The notes under the pieces are model-generated. The model was given only the letters and a program-made list of their open reading frames with translations. It was not told the DNA's origin and made no database searches. Of a stretch of 12,522 bases of DNA, positions 2,714 to 10,530 are shown piece by piece. Position 1 is the first letter of the stretch. Each line of letters begins with the position of its first letter. The position numbers were made by a program, and so were the translations under genes. Origin of the DNA: Bryobacterales bacterium (GTDB lineage Bacteria; Acidobacteriota; Terriglobia; Bryobacterales; Bryobacteraceae); NCBI GenBank assembly GCA_016789785.1, contig JAEUQE010000248.1, forward strand, positions 1 to 12,522. Reading direction: 5' to 3'.

Positions 2714-3595
2714 GTGAAAAAGAAAGGGCTTTCGGTGGACGTATCCCTCATCATCCGCCAACGACTCAAGGAAATGGGCCTCGATCAGCGGCAACTGGCG
2801 GCGGCGGTTCAGGTGACTGACTCCTACGTTTCTCAGCTTCTTACCCGCAAAAAGCCGCCGCCAGCGCCGGGACGGACGGACCTTTACGAGAAGATCAGTC
2901 AATTTCTCGATTTGCCGGCGGGCCAACTGGAAGAGCTCGCGGTTGAGCAGAGGAAGGAGGATTTGAAGCGCCGGGTCCTTGATGTGCCTAATCCGCTCTT
3001 CAAGGGGTTCCGGGAACTGATCCTCCGGAAATGCGACCCTGAAATCCGGAAGGAAGTGCGCCGGATCGTGGAGAAGGACGCATTTGGCGAACTTGAGCGG
3101 CTCGTCACCCAGAAAATCCTGGATGTCACGCAAGGGTTGGCCCGGGAGGAACTGCGCAGCGAAACCTGGCTTCAGTCGCTGGCACAGATTCGGGGTTGGA
3201 GTTATGAGCAGATGCGCGTGGCGGTGCTCGACTTCCTGGACACTGACGTCGCCGGAGTCTCCACCGAACACTGTGCCGCGTTTCTGGATCCGATGATCCT
3301 TGCCTGGGACATTGATCTGCGGACGTTCGCCCTGGAGATCACGTTGAATCCGCGGGTCGCGCCCGGAGGCACCAGGCGTTTCGAGTTCATGGAGAAGTTG
3401 CCCGCTCCGCTGCCAGAACCGGGCCTCGATCAGTTCCTCGCAGACGAGTTCCTGAGAAGCGGCGCAACACCTGAGGAAATCGGGTTTCTAAAGCGGCTGT
3501 CCTTCGGCGGCCGCCGGCCAGCGCCGCTCTACTACTACCGGGAGCTTCAAAATCTGCGCGATCCTTTGCACTTCCCTGAATTGAGGCAGGCATGA
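2714..3595 (+). CDS. XRE-family transcriptional regulator with long C-terminal domain, 293 aa
   Basis: Residues about 10-66 form a helix-turn-helix of the XRE/Cro-CI class: an IIRQRLKEMGLDQRQLAAAV scaffold followed by the recognition-helix region VTDSYVSQLLTRK. The remaining 220 residues are a charged, helical, conserved-looking domain ending LYYYRELQNLRDPLHF. I recall this full-length architecture from Acidobacteria but know no ligand. It is far longer than a bare Cro-type repressor, so the C-terminal part probably senses a signal or mediates oligomerisation. GTG at 2714 is the only start upstream of the domain before an in-frame stop; GTG at 2735, with AAGGG before it, is an alternative that removes seven residues. 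No clear ribosome site precedes 2714. Its stop overlaps the next ATG (ATGA, 3592-3595), so it is cotranscribed with the glycan genes. Two matching inverted repeats upstream suggest autoregulation. Confidence 0.9.
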   Translation: MKKKGLSVDVSLIIRQRLKEMGLDQRQLAAAVQVTDSYVSQLLTRKKPPPAPGRTDLYEKISQFLDLPAGQLEELAVEQRKEDLKRRVLDVPNPLFKGFRELILRKCDPEIRKEVRRIVEKDAFGELERLVTQKILDVTQGLAREELRSETWLQSLAQIRGWSYEQMRVAVLDFLDTDVAGVSTEHCAAFLDPMILAWDIDLRTFALEITLNPRVAPGGTRRFEFMEKLPAPLPEPGLDQFLADEFLRSGATPEEIGFLKRLSFGGRRPAPLYYYRELQNLRDPLHFPELRQA

Positions 3596-5880
3596 CAGAT
3601 CCCTCCAAGCCCGGCAAGATCGCCTTTGTGGGCAATCACACTCCGCGAAAGTGTGGAATCGCGACCTTTACCTCCGATCTCATGGAATCCGTGAGCAACG
3701 CCTATCCGCAGAGCCACTGCTTCTGCGTGTCCGTCAACGACTTGAAAGACGGTTACGAATACCCCGAGTCCGTCCGTTTCGAGATCGAAGAACAGGATTT
3801 GTCGAGTTACCTCCGGGCGGCGGATTATCTAAACATCAACAACGTCGACGTTGTCTGCCTCCAGCATGAGTTCGGCATTTACGGAGGACTGTCGGGGGCC
3901 CACGTGCTCACCTTCCTGCGCGAACTGCGGATGCCGGTGGTAACGACACTCCACACGGTTCTGCGCGAGCCGCGCGCCGACCAGAAGAAGGTGATGCAAG
4001 AACTGATCGCGCTTTCCACGCGTGTGGTTGTGATGGCGGAACGCGGGCGCGAAATGCTGATGGACATCTACGGAGCGCCAGCCGGGAAGATTGAGGTGAT
4101 CAGCCATGGGATCCCCGATGTCGGCTTTGTCGATCCTGCCTTTTTCAAGGATCAGTTCGGCGTGGAAGGCAAGACCGTTCTGCTGACGTTCGGACTGCTA
4201 TCACCCAACAAAGGAATCGAGCATGTGCTGAACGCTCTGCCGGAAATCCTCTGCGAGTATCCCGACGTTGCATACATCGTGCTTGGAGCGACCCATCCGA
4301 ATCTGGTGCGGGAGCATGGGGAAACGTACCGGCTGAGCCTGGAACTCCTGGCGAAAAAAAACCGCATCGACCGGAACGTGATCTTCTACAACCAGTTTGT
4401 GGATATCGCCGTGCTCAAGGAGTTCATTGGCGCGACGGACCTCTATATCACGCCCTATCTCAACGAAGCGCAGATTACTTCGGGTACGCTTGCGTATGCG
4501 TTCGGAGCGGGAAAGGCGATTGTCTCCACGCCTTACTGGCACGCCGCGGAGTTATTGGCAAAGGACCGGGGCGTGCTTGTGCCTTTTGGCGACTCGCGGG
4601 CAATCGCGCGGGAGGTGATCGCCCTGTTGAAGGACGATCCCCGGCGTCACGCGATGCGCAAGAACGCCTATCGCATGGGACGTGACATGATCTGGAGCAC
4701 CGTTGCGCAGTGCTACATGAAGTGCTTTGAGACGGCGCGGATGGATAGTGCGGCGCACTCCCGCAGATCGGCCAGCGTCAAGACCCTTGACCGGCGTCCA
4801 AGGCAGTTGCCGGATCTGCGGCTCGATCACTTAGCCCGCATGACAGACTCCACGGGAGTATTTCAACATGCGGTCTTTAATGTGCCGAACTATGCCGAAG
4901 GCTATTGCACGGACGACAACGCCCGGGGGTTCATTCTTGCCGTTCTCCTCGGTGAATTGGATGAGGATCGAGAAGGAGTGCGCAGACTGGCGACCACCTG
5001 CGGCGCATTTCTGAATCACGCCTTTGCGGACAAGGCGGGACGGTTCCATAACCACTTGAGCTTCGATCGCCGGTGGCTGGACGAATGCGGCTCGGAGGAT
5101 TGTCACGGACGCGCGCTCTGGGCCCTTGGCGTGGGTGTCGGGAGATCGCCCTTAAGGGGATTCCAGATGATGGCGGGGCAGCTATTTCCGCGCGCGCTGC
5201 CGGCATTCCGGGAATTCACTTCCCCGCGCGCATGGGCATTCGGTCTGATTGGCATTCACGAATACCTTCGCCGGTTGGGCGGCGATAGCCTGGTGAATCA
5301 GACGCGCGACTTGCTTGCAGGCCGGTTAACGGGGCTGTTTGACCGGAACGCCAAGCCGGGGTGGCTATGGTTCGAGGATGAACTCTCCTATGACAATGCG
5401 AAGCTGGCGCACGCATTGATACTCAGTGGACGCGCAACCCGGCAGCCGGAGGTTTTGGAAAAGGGCTTGACGGCGCTGCGGTGGCTCACTGAGCTTCAAG
5501 TGTCGGAGAAGGGGCACTTCCGCCCGATTGGCAGCAACGGCTTCTATCGCAGGGGCGGGGTTCGGGCGGACTTCGATCAGCAGCCGATCGAGGCGCAGGC
5601 CACGGTATCGGCGTGTTTGGAGGCTTATCGGGCTACGGGCGATACGTGGTGGTACGAGCAGGCGCAACGCGCCTTCGACTGGTTTATCGGATGGAACGAT
5701 TTGGGTCAGGCGCTCTACGTGCCGGACAGCGGCGGGTGCGCTGATGGGCTGCATATGGACCGGGTGAACTGGAACCAGGGCGCCGAATCCACTCTTGCCT
5801 TCCTGCTTTCGCTTGTCGAATTGCGCCTTGCTCGAGACATGGTGACCAGCTTCAAGGAACCGGTGGCCATTGAGGCGTGA
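3592..5880 (+). CDS. GT4-type glycosyltransferase fused to an (alpha/alpha)-barrel-like domain, 762 aa
   Basis: Residues about 10-385 are a GT-B fold glycosyltransferase of the GT4 type: a GNHTPRKCGIATFTSDL loop (14-30), LQHEFGIYGG (90-99), and a donor-site half with GLLSPNKGIEHV (201-212) and EAQITSGTLAYAFGAGKAI (292-310). The second Glu of the usual E-x7-E pair is Leu300. Residues about 400-750 form a helical domain with acidic motifs YCTDDNARG (438-446), GSEDCHGRALWALG (500-513), WFEDELSYDNAKL (593-605) and FDQQPIEAQ (661-669). The alternation of helices with conserved acids resembles six-hairpin glycosidase or epimerase barrels, so the domain may act on the same sugar; its activity is unknown. 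No signal peptide or membrane segment is seen, so it is probably cytoplasmic. The donor could be GDP-mannose, inferred only from the GH130 neighbours. The start overlaps the regulator stop by four bases. Confidence 0.9.
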   Translation: MTDPSKPGKIAFVGNHTPRKCGIATFTSDLMESVSNAYPQSHCFCVSVNDLKDGYEYPESVRFEIEEQDLSSYLRAADYLNINNVDVVCLQHEFGIYGGLSGAHVLTFLRELRMPVVTTLHTVLREPRADQKKVMQELIALSTRVVVMAERGREMLMDIYGAPAGKIEVISHGIPDVGFVDPAFFKDQFGVEGKTVLLTFGLLSPNKGIEHVLNALPEILCEYPDVAYIVLGATHPNLVREHGETYRLSLELLAKKNRIDRNVIFYNQFVDIAVLKEFIGATDLYITPYLNEAQITSGTLAYAFGAGKAIVSTPYWHAAELLAKDRGVLVPFGDSRAIAREVIALLKDDPRRHAMRKNAYRMGRDMIWSTVAQCYMKCFETARMDSAAHSRRSASVKTLDRRPRQLPDLRLDHLARMTDSTGVFQHAVFNVPNYAEGYCTDDNARGFILAVLLGELDEDREGVRRLATTCGAFLNHAFADKAGRFHNHLSFDRRWLDECGSEDCHGRALWALGVGVGRSPLRGFQMMAGQLFPRALPAFREFTSPRAWAFGLIGIHEYLRRLGGDSLVNQTRDLLAGRLTGLFDRNAKPGWLWFEDELSYDNAKLAHALILSGRATRQPEVLEKGLTALRWLTELQVSEKGHFRPIGSNGFYRRGGVRADFDQQPIEAQATVSACLEAYRATGDTWWYEQAQRAFDWFIGWNDLGQALYVPDSGGCADGLHMDRVNWNQGAESTLAFLLSLVELRLARDMVTSFKEPVAIEA

Positions 5881-5887
5881 GTATCCA

Positions 5888-7363
5888 ATGACGCATGTTT
5901 CCGTGACTCGAACCAACATCTTATTGACGCCCGATCCGTCCAGAGTGCTGTTGCGCCCCTTCGTTCCCGGCGATGCTGGCCGGATGCGCGACATCGCGGC
6001 CCGGGTCCTGGCGATCCCCGAAGAGCAGGCGCACGAGCTACTGGCGGAGGTGCTTGCCGGCTTTGCATCCCGCCATCAGCATCTGTCCGCCATCATGCGC
6101 GAGCGCTTTGAGCAAGTCCGGGAATATCTGCCACAAGGCGTTACGCCTTCGGAAACGCAGCGGCTCCTCATCGGCGCTTACTTCCTGGCGGAGTATGCCG
6201 TGGAGTCGGCCGCCTTGTTCAATCCGTCGCTGGTGCCGCATCCGGATCAGAGCGGCGTTCCCGACGGCGCGGTGCGAATCGTTCTGAGCCTGCGCGCCAC
6301 TGGCGAAGGCCACATCTCTTCCGTCACTTTTCGCTGCGGCACCATCCACTCGGATCACAGGATCGATCTAGTCACGCCCGCGGGCATGTTGACCGAAGCG
6401 CGCCAGATCCCGAACCCGGTGTACGAAAACGGCCTCTTCGCAAGGAGGCTTCGGGAGATGGGACTCACGGGCAACTTCGTCAACGAAGTAATGGGGATGC
6501 TGCGGGAGACTTTCTCGCTGGATGAACTTCGCGCCACCCTTGATATCCGCCTTCATCAGGCAGAACTGGCGCAAGGCCTGCTGCATGAGGACAAGGTCAC
6601 CGCGGATGGCATCTGGGCGTTGGCGCGATCGAACTACGAAGTACAATTCCGGCCTGACCAGCAGCTCTCCGAGAGAATCCTGTTCCCCGCCACGCCATCG
6701 CAGCGCAACGGGATTGAGGACGCACGTTTCGTCCACTTTCGCGACGAGGATGGCGCAGGCATTTACTATGCGACCTTCACCGCCTTTGATGGAAGGGCTG
6801 TCGTTCCCGAACTCGTGGAGACGGCGGACTTCGCGAGGTTCCGGTTCATCACACTGAACGGCCCCGCCGCGCAGAACAAGGGCATGGCTCTGTTTCCGAG
6901 GAGAATCAACGGACGCTTCGCCATGCTCTCCCGCCAGGACAACGAGAGCATCTCGATCATGTATTCAGACAACGTCCACTTCTGGAACGAGAGGCAAGTA
7001 CTGATGAGGCCATCGGCCCCATGGGAGTTGATTCAGATTGGGAACTGTGGCTCTCCCATGGAAACCAGTGCCGGCTGGCTGGTGCTGAGTCACGGTGTGG
7101 GGCCCATGCGGCGGTATTGCATCAGTGCGTTCCTCCTGGATCGTGACGACCCTGGCGTGATCATCGGATGCTTGCGGGAACCTCTGCTTCAGCCCGACCA
7201 CCGCGAACGCGAGGGTTACGTGCCGAATGTGGTCTATTCTTGCGGAGCCATGATTCACAACGGTGTCCTGGTCATCCCCTACGGGCTGTCCGATCGGGCT
7301 ACGGGCTTCGCCACGGTCCCGCTGGACGACGTGCTGGCGGCGATGGAGCCGCTTGGCCCGTGA
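5888..7363 (+). CDS. Long GH130-family protein (putative mannoside phosphorylase), 491 aa
   Basis: The catalytic five-bladed propeller appears to span residues about 110-491. GIEDAR (275-280) carries Asp278, the counterpart of the general acid in the GVEDPR motif of GH130. GNCGSPMETSAGWLVLSHGV (385-404) and GYVPNVVYSCGA (443-454) correspond to later family blocks, seen almost unchanged in the shorter paralogue at 8397-9344. An N-terminal region of about 110 helical residues and further inserts make it longer than the roughly 300-350 residues of simple members. GH130 enzymes mostly phosphorolyse beta-mannosides (beta-1,4 or beta-1,2) to mannose 1-phosphate; some are hydrolases. Which applies here cannot be read by eye. 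No signal peptide. I chose ATG 5888, seven bases after the previous stop, over an in-frame TTG at 5870 that would overlap it. Confidence 0.87.
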   Translation: MTHVSVTRTNILLTPDPSRVLLRPFVPGDAGRMRDIAARVLAIPEEQAHELLAEVLAGFASRHQHLSAIMRERFEQVREYLPQGVTPSETQRLLIGAYFLAEYAVESAALFNPSLVPHPDQSGVPDGAVRIVLSLRATGEGHISSVTFRCGTIHSDHRIDLVTPAGMLTEARQIPNPVYENGLFARRLREMGLTGNFVNEVMGMLRETFSLDELRATLDIRLHQAELAQGLLHEDKVTADGIWALARSNYEVQFRPDQQLSERILFPATPSQRNGIEDARFVHFRDEDGAGIYYATFTAFDGRAVVPELVETADFARFRFITLNGPAAQNKGMALFPRRINGRFAMLSRQDNESISIMYSDNVHFWNERQVLMRPSAPWELIQIGNCGSPMETSAGWLVLSHGVGPMRRYCISAFLLDRDDPGVIIGCLREPLLQPDHREREGYVPNVVYSCGAMIHNGVLVIPYGLSDRATGFATVPLDDVLAAMEPLGP

Positions 7364-8400
7364 GCGCGATCTACCGGAAGCGGAACCGTATCGCCGTGCT
7401 GTCGCCTGTGGCATGGCGCACGCCGCCACGCCATTACGGGGCGTGGGAGACAGTGGCAAGCAACATCGCGGAGGGGCTGGTCGCGCGTGGATGGGAAGTG
7501 ACCCTATTTGCCACCGGCGACTCCGTCACGCGGGCAAAGCTCCACTCGGTGGTGGAACGCGGCTATGAGGAGGATTCCTCGCTTGATCCCAAGGTGTCGG
7601 AGTACACGCACATCTCCGAAGCCTTCGAACAAGCTTCCGCTTTCGATTTGATTCATAGCCACTACGACTTCATGGCGCTGACTTATTCGCGTTTGGTGAG
7701 GACACCGGTACTCACAACAATTCACGGTTTCTCTTCCCCGCAGATCATGCCCCTTTACCGCAAGTACGGCGGAGGCTATTTCGTTTCGATTAGCAATTCG
7801 GACCGCGTGGCCGGGCTCAACTATGTGGCGACGGTTCACAACGGAATCGATCTGTCCCTTTACCCTCTCCAGCGCCAGCGGGGAACGGATCTGGTCTTTC
7901 TCGGCCGCATTCACCCGGACAAGGGATTGCACCTGGCAATCGCCGTGGCGCGGGCCGTGAACCTGCCTCTTCTCATCGCCGGCATCATCCAGGACCGTGT
8001 CTACTTCGAAGAGCAGGTGGCGCCGGAGCTGGATGATCAGATTCGATACTTGGGCGCGGTGGACGTAGCCGGAAAGAATGAGTTGTTTCGCCGCGCTCGA
8101 GCCGTGCTGCATCTGAACACCGTGGCGGAACGCTTCGGCCTTGTATTGGCGGAAGCGAACGCCGCCGGTGTTCCCGTCATCGCCATGGACCTGGGGTCGT
8201 GCCGGGAGGTAATCGAGGATGGCAGGACGGGATTCCTCGTCCATGACGTCCGCGGAGCCGTGGAAGCGGTGGCGCGCACTGGAGAGATCGCGGCAACTCT
8301 CTGCCGCGAGCGCGTGGCACAGAGGTTCTCGACCGAAACGATGGTCCGGGGCTACGAGCAGGCTTACGAACGAGTATTCGAAATGGAAGGCTGGTCATGA
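7360..8400 (+). CDS. GT4 family glycosyltransferase, 346 aa
   Basis: Retaining GT-B glycosyltransferase, probably cytosolic and using a nucleotide-sugar donor. The N-terminal half has the GT4 acceptor-domain start SPVAWRTPPRHYGAWETVAS (15-34), IHSHYDFMAL (98-107) and TTIHGFSSPQ (119-128). The C-terminal half has VHNGIDLSLYP (159-169), FLGRIHPDKGL (180-190) and the complete E-x7-E motif ERFGLVLAE (Glu257 and Glu265), followed by VIEDGRTGFLV (284-294). Length is normal for the family. The GTG at 7360 overlaps the previous stop (GTGA, 7360-7363), which implies translational coupling and rules out upstream starts in the open frame, since these would run through the GH130 gene. Acceptor and linkage are unknown. 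Unlike the first glycosyltransferase in this operon, it keeps both glutamates, so the two are unlikely to be redundant. Confidence 0.92.
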   Translation: MSAIYRKRNRIAVLSPVAWRTPPRHYGAWETVASNIAEGLVARGWEVTLFATGDSVTRAKLHSVVERGYEEDSSLDPKVSEYTHISEAFEQASAFDLIHSHYDFMALTYSRLVRTPVLTTIHGFSSPQIMPLYRKYGGGYFVSISNSDRVAGLNYVATVHNGIDLSLYPLQRQRGTDLVFLGRIHPDKGLHLAIAVARAVNLPLLIAGIIQDRVYFEEQVAPELDDQIRYLGAVDVAGKNELFRRARAVLHLNTVAERFGLVLAEANAAGVPVIAMDLGSCREVIEDGRTGFLVHDVRGAVEAVARTGEIAATLCRERVAQRFSTETMVRGYEQAYERVFEMEGWS

Positions 8401-9344
8401 AAACCGAGATCATCAGGCGCTATGTCCACAACCCGATCCTCACCAAGGCCGCCGTTCCCTATCCGGTCGAGACCGTTCACAATGCGGCGGTGGTGAAACA
8501 CGGCAACGAGTACATCATGTTGTTTCGGTCGCATCTGCGGACGGGCAGGTCAATTCTTGGCCTCGCCCGCAGTGCGGACGGCTATCACTTTGAAGCTGAT
8601 GAGGCGCCGTTCCTGACGCCTGCAACCACAGGCCCATTCGCGGGGGAGGAAGCGTTCGGCGTCGAAGACCCTCGCATCACGCTGGTCAACGGTGAGTATC
8701 TGATCACCTACAGCGCCTACTCTTCTCACGGAGTGCGCACGGGGCTCGCCAGAACCACTGATTTCCTCAGCGTTGAACGGATCTCGCTGATCACCCAGGC
8801 CGACTACCGCAACACCGTCCTGTTTCCCGAGACGTTCAACGGGCTTTATGCCAGATTGGATCGCCCGCACTCGGGCATCGCTCCGTGGTCGATCTGGATC
8901 TCGTATTCTCCGGATCTGCGGTTCTGGGGAGAATCCAGGCTTGTGATGCAGCCACAGCCGTACCATTGGGACGAGGCGAAGATCGGCCCAGGCGCGCCGC
9001 CGATCAAGACCGCGGCGGGTTGGCTCTCCATTTATCACGGGGTATTTCAAACGATGGCCGGAGCAGTGTATCGTCTTGGTGTTGCGCTTCACGACCTTCA
9101 GGATCCTTCGATCGTCCTCGGTGCCGGCGACGAATGGATCCTCCAACCCGAAGCGCCGTGGGAGATCACGGGATACGTTCCGAACGTCGTGTTCTGTTGT
9201 GGAGCGGTTCCTGAGCCGGACGGCACGGTGAAGATCTACTGGGGAGGCGCGGACAGCGTGATGTGTGTGGGCGAGGCTTCACTGGCCGATCTGGTCGGGG
9301 TCTGCATCGAAAAGGGCAGGCCGCCGAGAGCGGCGGCGGTGTAG
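8397..9344 (+). CDS. GH130-family glycoside phosphorylase (mannoside-active, putative), 315 aa
   Basis: A canonical-length GH130 enzyme. Motifs in order: HNPIL (11-15), PVETVHNAAVV (23-33), FRSHLRTGRS (43-52), GVEDPRIT (88-95) with probable general acid Asp91, NTVLFPE (139-145), KIGPGAPPIKTAAGWLSIYHGV (start 195, His214), GYVPNVVFCCGAV (259-271) and IYWGGAD (280-286). Basic residues where phosphorylases bind phosphate (Arg44, Arg153, Lys204, His214 are candidates) remain, so phosphorolysis is more likely than hydrolysis; this is inferred. The expected reaction is reversible cleavage of a beta-mannoside to alpha-mannose 1-phosphate, beta-1,4 or beta-1,2 being the known options. No signal peptide, so the substrate must be intracellular or imported. 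ATG overlaps the preceding stop (ATGA, 8397-8400); last gene of the operon. Confidence 0.92.
   Translation: MKTEIIRRYVHNPILTKAAVPYPVETVHNAAVVKHGNEYIMLFRSHLRTGRSILGLARSADGYHFEADEAPFLTPATTGPFAGEEAFGVEDPRITLVNGEYLITYSAYSSHGVRTGLARTTDFLSVERISLITQADYRNTVLFPETFNGLYARLDRPHSGIAPWSIWISYSPDLRFWGESRLVMQPQPYHWDEAKIGPGAPPIKTAAGWLSIYHGVFQTMAGAVYRLGVALHDLQDPSIVLGAGDEWILQPEAPWEITGYVPNVVFCCGAVPEPDGTVKIYWGGADSVMCVGEASLADLVGVCIEKGRPPRAAAV
9320..9337 (+). terminator. GC-rich hairpin at the end of the glycan operon, weak terminator candidate
   Basis: GCCGCC-GAGAGC-GGCGGC forms a six-base-pair GC stem inside the last codons of the GH130 gene. There is no T-run after it, so intrinsic termination is doubtful; it may only stabilise the 3' end, or be a by-product of Ala/Arg codons. 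Confidence 0.18.
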
Positions 9345-9415: not shown

Positions 9416-9784
9416 TTGCGGATCCAGATCCAACCTGAACCGCTTGCAATCTGCCGGCTCGCGCCTGACGCGGCACCGCCAGAGTGGGCACGAGGCGCAT
9501 TCTGTTCCATCACGCGCAACGAAGACGAACTCTCGATCGTATGCGATGAATCCGAGATCCCCGCGGAGATTCATGCCGAGCGTGGCTTCCGCGCGCTCAA
9601 GGTGGTTGGACCTCTCGACTTCTCGCTGGTCGGTGTGCTGGCATCGATCGCAACGCCGCTGGCTCAGGCAGGCATCAGCATTTTCGCCATCTCGACATTC
9701 GATACCGACTACATCCTGATCCGCGAGCAGCAGCTTCCTTCCGCTGTGGCGGCACTGCGCGAAGCGGGGCACGAGGTTTCATGA
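9416..9784 (+). CDS. ACT-domain protein (CASTOR/ACT_7-like), 122 aa
   Basis: Residues about 58-122 have the beta-alpha-beta-beta-alpha-beta pattern of an ACT domain: LKVVGPLDFSLVGVLASIAT, then PLAQAGISIFAISTFDTDYI, a short helix PSAVAALREAG and a final strand. The N-terminal 55 residues, including WARGAFCSITRNEDELSIVC, fit the companion ACT-like domain of the small bacterial two-ACT proteins related to CASTOR. Such proteins are thought to bind amino acids; no ligand is established for this one. Probably a cytoplasmic sensor or allosteric partner. The start is a TTG at 9416 with little ribosome-site support, so it may be misplaced by a few codons, but the domain itself is complete. Its stop overlaps the ATG of the HExxH gene (ATGA, 9781-9784), which implies linked function. 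Confidence 0.82.
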   Translation: MRIQIQPEPLAICRLAPDAAPPEWARGAFCSITRNEDELSIVCDESEIPAEIHAERGFRALKVVGPLDFSLVGVLASIATPLAQAGISIFAISTFDTDYILIREQQLPSAVAALREAGHEVS

Positions 9785-10530
9785 AGCCAACGGTTGCGTC
9801 GTGGCTCGCGGAGGTTGAGGAACTCTCGGGCGGGCGGGCGGTGATTGTGCCTGTGGAGACCGATCGCGTGCAGAACACCATCTCCATTCCACCGCTTTTT
9901 CCAGGGCGCGATCTTGTCCGCGAGTTGCTCATGCAGGAGAGCTTCGTTGCGCAACTCATTCGCGCACATGCGCTGACGGTGAATACGGAGCGCAATGGCC
10001 AGCGCTTTCATTTCGTGCTGTTGAACATGGCGCTCGCGGATCAATGGGAGGCGCATCGCGAGCAGTTGCTGGCGCATGAGGCCGGACATTTGTGGCTCAA
10101 CGCGCTTGGCTACCGCTCGTTGAATGCAGATCCATCGAGCCCGCGGGCCTGCATCGCGACGCACGCCGCCGACATTGTGCAGCACGTTCTGATTCGCCAT
10201 GAGATGCAGCGCCGGGGCTTTGACATGAGCTTCTGGATTCGCAATCAGCAGGCGTGGTTGAAGCAGCTCGGCGACGCCGGCCGCGCGACGGTTGTGGGTT
10301 GCGAGCGGGCGCAAGCCGTCAGCCTGTGGGTGGACGGTGCGCTCGGCCTGAACGCGGAACTGTGGGCTGAGTGGCCGGAGTGGAATGCTCGAACGCGCGA
10401 AGCGTTCCCTGATCTGGTCCCGATTGGCGAGCGCATCGCGCGGTTTCTCAGCGGAATGGATCTGTGGGATCGATCGTTGTATGAGGCGGCGCTGGCGAGG
10501 GTGCTGGCAGAGCTTCAGCCGCTGGTGTGA
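9781..10530 (+). CDS. HExxH-motif protein, putative cytoplasmic metallopeptidase-like, 249 aa
   Basis: A single strong motif is visible: HEAGH at residues 99-103 inside a predicted helix (LLAHEAGHLWLNALG), the zinc-binding signature of gluzincin and related metallopeptidases. Candidate third ligands on the following helix are His128, His135, His140 and Glu141 (HAADIVQHVLIRHE). There is no signal peptide or membrane segment. I cannot assign a peptidase family, and a single HExxH is insufficient proof of proteolysis; a non-peptidase metal protein remains possible. It is translationally coupled to the ACT-domain gene upstream, raising the possibility that the two form a ligand-controlled pair. 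A long open frame on the other strand across this region is rejected because its composition is that of an antisense frame. Confidence 0.75.
   Translation: MKPTVASWLAEVEELSGGRAVIVPVETDRVQNTISIPPLFPGRDLVRELLMQESFVAQLIRAHALTVNTERNGQRFHFVLLNMALADQWEAHREQLLAHEAGHLWLNALGYRSLNADPSSPRACIATHAADIVQHVLIRHEMQRRGFDMSFWIRNQQAWLKQLGDAGRATVVGCERAQAVSLWVDGALGLNAELWAEWPEWNARTREAFPDLVPIGERIARFLSGMDLWDRSLYEAALARVLAELQPLV

Follow-up and report, generated by a model that had tools for sequence, protein, structure and literature searches.

A conserved block of GT4-type and GH130-type genes that may build and recycle a mannose-containing sugar inside bacterial cells

What would a bacterium do with two GT4-type and two GH130-type proteins encoded in one tight block? 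The question is raised by a 12,522-nucleotide stretch of a Bryobacterales contig (JAEUQE010000248.1; hereafter the window), in which four plus-strand genes, delimited by open reading frames and Pfam matches, occupy positions 3592-9344. GT1 (3592-5880, 762 aa) consists of a GT4-fold domain (3601-4755, residues 4-388) fused to a YPO2471-like (alpha/alpha)6-barrel domain (4798-5856, residues 403-755); it is followed by GHA (5888-7363, 491 aa), a long GH130 protein with helical insertions, GT2 (7360-8400, 346 aa, GTG start), a TeGSS-like GT4, and GHB (8397-9344, 315 aa), a compact GH130. By Pfam, GT1 and GT2 carry GT4-type domains, and GHA and GHB match Glyco_hydro_130. A 7-base gap (5881-5887) separates GT1 from GHA, and the two further junctions are 4-base overlaps, GTGA at 7360 and ATGA at 8397; the alternation and the junctions of the original prediction were recovered exactly. 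That prediction had also denied the four proteins a signal peptide, and their N-termini are indeed not hydrophobic, the maximal 12-residue mean hydropathy near the start being 0.75-0.93, compared with 2.51 in a secreted-looking protein encoded at 1-1476 on the minus strand. Judged from sequence, all four are cytoplasmic-looking. The nearest relatives of the block proteins, among the matches listed (the best 120 each, from 7999 candidates sharing most words), mostly carry titles of Bryobacterales, Bryobacteraceae or other Acidobacteria.

An HTH (XRE-type) regulator gene (2714-3595, plus strand, 293 aa; PF01381 26.7 bits, cut-off 23) overlaps the start of GT1 by ATGA and is a possible regulator of the operon; of the 28 close relatives with at least 1.5 kb of sequence upstream of GT1, 11 have a homologue within that distance. 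The secreted-looking comparison protein at 1-1476 is of PSD3/PSCyt1 type (DUF1587, planctomycete-type cytochrome) and runs off the window end. Downstream, an ACT-domain gene (9416-9784) begins 71 bases after the block and is overlapped by a gene for a 249-aa protein (the pair spanning 9416-10530) that neither Pfam nor NCBIfam matched at E 0.001; no link of either gene to the block was found.

Is this arrangement a local accident? GHB was searched against genome contigs, and the best 80 out of 399 loci by closeness to GHB were compared. The order GT1-GHA-GT2-GHB was found by tblastn in 36 of the 80 (rows with one gene split into two hits being counted), in line with the conservation of gene order that the original prediction had looked for. 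Ten loci, with titles of Bacteroidota, Balneolota and KSB1, had the order GT1-GHB-GT2-GHA, six of them having GHA, alone or along with GT2, on the opposite strand, and many of the remaining 34 were cut by contig ends. The loci that contributed a GHA or GHB to the tree described below carry titles from Acidobacteriota, Planctomycetota, Bacteroidota, Balneolota, KSB1, Bacillota, Nitrospirota, Omnitrophota, Fidelibacterota, Chloroflexota, Myxococcota and Eiseniibacteriota, many of them being MAGs whose phylum names may reflect binning errors, as with a Gammaproteobacteria bin that holds a close relative. Of the 57 loci in which the GT2 and GHB hits are same-strand neighbours, 40 have an overlap of exactly 4 bases between them, and the recurrence of this overlap, together with the association of GT1 and GH130 genes, is more than chance. 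The overlaps do not imply the fixed stoichiometry once read from them, because some loci lack GHB or GT2 or have GHA inverted. Six stretches show GT1 and GHA alone (L089, L091, L092, L094, L095 and L096), so the neighbourhood of GT1 and GHA need not include GT2 and GHB, and no GHB was seen in the stretches of L097 and L098.

Several variants of the block were also observed. Four loci forming one cluster (L015, L032, L049 and L052) have an extra gene between GHA and GT2, which is transglutaminase-like in the two that were scanned (L015:8035-8880 and L032:8125-8973). In two Planctomycetaceae-titled MAGs (L003:3299-5640 and L038:5087-7425), the two domains of GT1 are separate genes with a TAATG overlap; GT1 is just 36-37% identical there, yet GHA, GT2 and GHB are close to those of the window. 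On the minus strand of L007 (4127-7413) and L037 (3897-7337), a second GT1-like gene and a small Lys-type GH130 gene lie inverted beside the main block, possibly a two-gene version of the system. A Cpn60 chaperonin-like gene of one cluster (one member identified by Pfam) lies near the block in L015, L018, L025, L040, L052 and L058, and L035:2924-4000 encodes a Cpn60/response-regulator protein.

Genome-wide counts indicate which genes form the core. Among 199 genomes from the phylum of Acidobacteriaceae bacterium KBS 96 (G001, the genome of L035), GT1 occurred in 38; a GH130 gene was present somewhere in 37 of these, within 2 kb of GT1 in 32, and the other six of the 38 had no GH130 on the same contig as GT1. 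By comparison, only 16 of the 161 genomes without GT1 had GH130 (Fisher p about 2e-26, with kinship ignored), so the co-occurrence of GT1 and GH130 is far above expectation. GH130 alone is not diagnostic, because four out of 14 named control genomes had the family as well. At E below 1e-125, long matches to GHA were found in 22 of the 199 genomes, all 22 with GT1, and on the same contig in 21; in the exception, G114, the GHA match begins at contig base 8. Strict GHB (E up to 1e-80) occurred in five and strict GT2 (E below 1e-100) in six of the 199, every GT2 on a GT1-bearing contig. In a second set of 148 genomes, from the phylum of G004 (the genome of L051, with a Bacteroidales title), near-full-length GHA was present in 17, a GT1 relative in 15 of these 17 and on the same contig in 12; GT1 was found in 27, 12 of which had no near-full-length GHA. 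These counts indicate that GT1 plus a GH130 protein constitute the core, with GT2 and GHB as frequent, not constant, partners. In six genomes of the second set (G227, G282, G239, G294, G272 and G324), the match was confined to the C-terminal half of GHA, roughly residues 241-486, and the open frames have 418-464 codons, a shorter GHA-like type.

Conserved residues were read from alignments of 27, 25, 34 and 23 chosen rows, a subset of the relatives; the GHA alignment is without L043 (stop in range), the range of L070 was shortened and one L013 open reading frame range was omitted. GH130 phosphorylases feature a catalytic Asp and three basic phosphate-binding residues and are cytoplasmic, whereas hydrolases of the BT3780 type have a Glu pair in place of phosphate-site basic residues and are secreted (PMC4599007). 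GHB (Glyco_hydro_130, 174.8 bits, cut-off 26), whose best match is TM1225 (183 bits) with others close behind, keeps Asp91, Arg138, Arg156 and Lys195 in 26 of 26 orthologues, the columns being assigned by alignment, and is predicted to have a complete phosphorylase-type site. GHA scores 91.5 bits against the same profile (PF04041, cut-off 26) over residues 261-486 of 491 only. Its catalytic Asp278 is kept in 27 of 27 aligned sequences, as are Lys331 and Arg349 at the phosphate site, but the third position, mapped by alignment, is Gln383 in all 27 (codon CAG, 7034-7036, plus strand), where aligned phosphorylases have Lys or Arg. GHA does not therefore carry the three basic residues of a GH130 phosphorylase and is not a standard one; of the two phosphorylases originally predicted, GHB stands as a putative one and GHA, at least as a simple phosphorylase, is ruled out by its residues.

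Neither does GHA resemble an ordinary GH130 hydrolase. The BT3780 and BACOVA_03624 mannosidases carry the Glu pair and are secreted, whereas GHA has two basic residues and Gln with no signal peptide: the Glu-pair positions, mapped from spacing, correspond to Arg349 and Gln383. An invariant Glu392 lies near Gln383, and TM1225 also has Glu there. In the alignment, Lys331 falls on the NKD lysine found in the Teth514 enzymes and, by our column mapping, the beta-1,2 lysine (Lys199 of BT3780) is kept in 27 of 27; GHB has Arg at this position, and the eight smaller GH130 paralogues near related blocks all have the Lys-type motif. The original prediction had proposed placing the GH130 proteins in a GH130/GT108 tree, and GHA formed a separate GH130 clade in a single tree with flagged long branches and five reference rows that are aligned segments, not full chains. 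The fold match of GHA to GT108 is well below that to GH130, and GT108 membership seems unlikely and was not adopted; the Leishmania GT108 mannogen enzymes (MTP) share a five-bladed propeller, beta-mannoside chemistry and a storage glycan, as described in the accessible part of PMC8950772.

GT2 (PF00534, 78.1 bits) has the glucosylsucrose synthase TeGSS as its best solved relative (chains 8x3q and 7fg9, E 1.3e-73 and 1.4e-73), with 44% identity in the alignment. Tyr26, Arg183, Lys188, Glu257 and Glu265 of GT2 are intact, and the corresponding TeGSS residues (Tyr18, Arg179, Lys184, Glu256 and Glu265) are kept in 22 of 22 aligned GT2 proteins, a likeness in these five residues to the TeGSS/alr1000 type of GT4. 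GT2 is thus predicted to be a GT4 with intact UDP-site residues. Within the GT4 fold lies one hydrophobic segment, with a 19-residue mean hydropathy of 2.14 at residue 192. In the accessible part of its description, TeGSS makes glucosylsucrose, a salt-stress oligosaccharide, from UDP-glucose and a soluble sugar acceptor, and its Trp10 stacks on the fructose of sucrose (PMC9909042). The Trp10 column has another residue in GT2, with an invariant Trp one position off, and GT2 lies beside GH130 genes, whereas the same source places TeGSS beside a sucrose-phosphate synthase gene.

GT1 has the GT4 fold, and its closest solved GT4 relative by sequence is PimA. In 25 of 25 aligned sequences, the donor-site Arg is replaced by Leu, Ile or Phe and the second EX7E Glu by Tyr or Cys; we take both residues to be canonical for GT4, in agreement with GT2 and TeGSS. 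The first EX7E Glu aligns to Gln294 or Ala293, and the nearby Glu292 is not invariant. The cleft has an invariant set of its own, namely Lys207, Gln294, Ser297, Gly298, His92-Glu93 and His172. The altered donor site could mean that the domain transfers no sugar. The C-terminal domain has the (alpha/alpha)6 fold and is related to YPO2471 (7tem), although the window's copy gave no Pfam match. The structure entry calls YPO2471 a putative exported protein, and no statement of its function was found in the literature searched, whereas here the domain is fused to, or encoded beside, a GT4 domain. Asp441, Asp442, Asp503, Asp718 and Glu732 are invariant in 25 of 25, and weak profile matches to GH88 (10 of 25, best 2.8e-5) and to D-glucuronyl C5-epimerase (2 of 25, best 3e-5) were found. 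AGE and cellobiose 2-epimerases use a catalytic His pair; the only invariant His residues of the domain are His413 and His426, both near its start, and a cellobiose-epimerase function, suggested by the fold alone, was not adopted.

How could these proteins work together? GT4 enzymes are retaining and form alpha bonds, and GH130 enzymes are inverting and act on beta-mannosides (partly after PMC4599007 and the accessible part of PMC8950772). The transferases therefore cannot make the bonds that the GH130 proteins break, and beta-mannosyl bonds must arise either from GH130 working in reverse, with mannose 1-phosphate, or from another source. Most simply, the transferases would make an alpha-glycosidic part, to and from which the GH130 proteins would add and remove beta-mannose. 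On the one hand, GT2, as a canonical UDP-sugar-type GT4, would place alpha-linked glucose onto a small sugar acceptor, and GT1 might add a further residue, with its (alpha/alpha)6 domain trimming or isomerising the glycan. On the other hand, GHB would transfer beta-mannosyl groups reversibly between acceptor and phosphate, yielding or using alpha-mannose 1-phosphate, and GHA, with the beta-1,2 lysine and without the third phosphate-binding residue, may make or trim a beta-1,2-mannosyl bond. The resulting sugar would serve as a reserve or protect against stress, the XRE-type regulator perhaps controlling the block in some lineages; only the TeGSS parallel and the cytoplasmic location point to either role.

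A mannose-containing sugar is thus the probable product of the block, which would make and recycle it within the cell. In its fuller form, that of a cytoplasmic module which stands by itself and both builds and recycles a soluble mixed-linkage oligosaccharide with beta-linked mannose, we give this reading a probability of about 45%, with substrates, direction and role inferred. A cytoplasmic module is favoured because the order is conserved, signal peptides are absent and the GHB phosphate site is intact throughout. Evidence against it comes from the lack of alignment at Trp10, the altered donor site of GT1, the stretches with GT1 and GHA alone, and individual neighbours in five loci: exporter-type ABC gene pairs adjoin L061 (where Wzt_C matched the ATPase weakly, under its cut-off) and L076, genes for a PIG-L-type deacetylase and a further GT4 come after the L062 block, an amino-acid-permease/PTS-EIIA protein is encoded directly upstream of GT1 in L066, and L035 has a GH38-like gene at 4.7 kb and a sugar transporter at 8.3 kb from the block.

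The genes of L035, both within 10 kb, would suit the use of imported beta-mannosides, in which the block would be the last, cytoplasmic stage, with GHB and GHA releasing mannose 1-phosphate and mannose and the transferases reusing the sugar. The complete phosphorylase site of GHB is consistent with this, and so is the closest described system, the Thermoanaerobacter cluster of the beta-1,2-mannoside phosphorylases Teth514_1788/1789, in which, according to the accessible part of PMC4264767, two GH130 phosphorylase genes cluster with a GT4 gene and salvage feeding GDP-mannose was proposed. That cluster also encodes five ABC transporter proteins, a GH5 protein and a guanylyltransferase, none of which had a match in the window; the accessible text mentions no GT1-type fusion, and the tree puts both GHA and GHB apart from the Teth514 enzymes. 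Mannan-utilisation loci likewise contain an importer or SusC/D and a secreted mannanase, whereas the block is without either. The predicted absence of transporter, porin and glycanase was borne out for the window and for 49 proteins in and beside related blocks (four of them inside blocks; a sample of neighbours), among which Pfam found no SusC/D, sugar-binding importer or mannanase, but not for L035, although neither of its genes is directly beside the block. GH26, the one mannanase family searched for, had no match in 21 of the 22 GHA-bearing genomes and was present in the other. No flanking gene cluster was common to more than two of 15 further loci (the rows of L090, L093 and L100 being incomplete), so that a conserved transporter or pathway gene in the flanks was rejected and the module seems to stand alone. 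Taken together, the salvage of imported mannosides appears unlikely.

The ABC genes of L061 and L076 and the PIG-L and GT4 genes of L062 would fit an exported or lipid-linked glycan, for which the transferases would build part of a polysaccharide or glycolipid and beta-mannose caps would be added or edited by the GH130 proteins. A role in surface glycans is common among GT4 enzymes, and PimA as the nearest solved relative of GT1 points the same way. However, no flippase, polymerase or lipid-carrier transferase was matched in the window or among the 49 sampled proteins, and the best solved match of GT2 acts on a soluble sugar (PMC9909042, accessible part), leaving this explanation doubtful as well. 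It is improbable that GT1 is no working transferase, its GT4 domain serving in glycan binding or regulation and its (alpha/alpha)6 domain forming with the partner GH130 a two-step internal degradation enzyme: the missing Arg and Glu, the five invariant acids and the GH88 or C5-epimerase matches in some relatives would agree with it, but the cleft's own invariant set suggests retained chemistry, not decay. Equally speculative is a bolder extension, in which GT1 would be a new GT4-fold enzyme whose donor is not a nucleotide sugar but a sugar 1-phosphate, in the likeliest case the mannose 1-phosphate that the partner GH130 handles. GT1 and GH130 would then together synthesise and recycle glycan without nucleotides, and the (alpha/alpha)6 domain would represent a new glycan-modifying enzyme family.

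We therefore return to the cytoplasmic making and recycling of a mannose-containing sugar as the preferred reading. The original prediction had put the system forward as a candidate undescribed one, and no description of the block was found in the literature searched, which was mostly without subscription papers. The enzyme families are known, their combination was not found described and is kept across phyla, and, as far as sequences can tell, GT1 and GHA stand outside the residue rules of their families. With active sites that are altered, and invariantly so in aligned relatives from several phyla, GT1 and GHA offer clear targets for studies of mechanism, and the block as a whole is an enzyme set open to direct expression and assay. 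Beta-mannosides are hard to make chemically (accessible part of PMC4264767), so the new GH130 types and the (alpha/alpha)6 domain could be useful for enzyme discovery. If the preferred reading is true, many uncultured soil and sediment bacteria would make an internal mannose-containing sugar of which we found no report.
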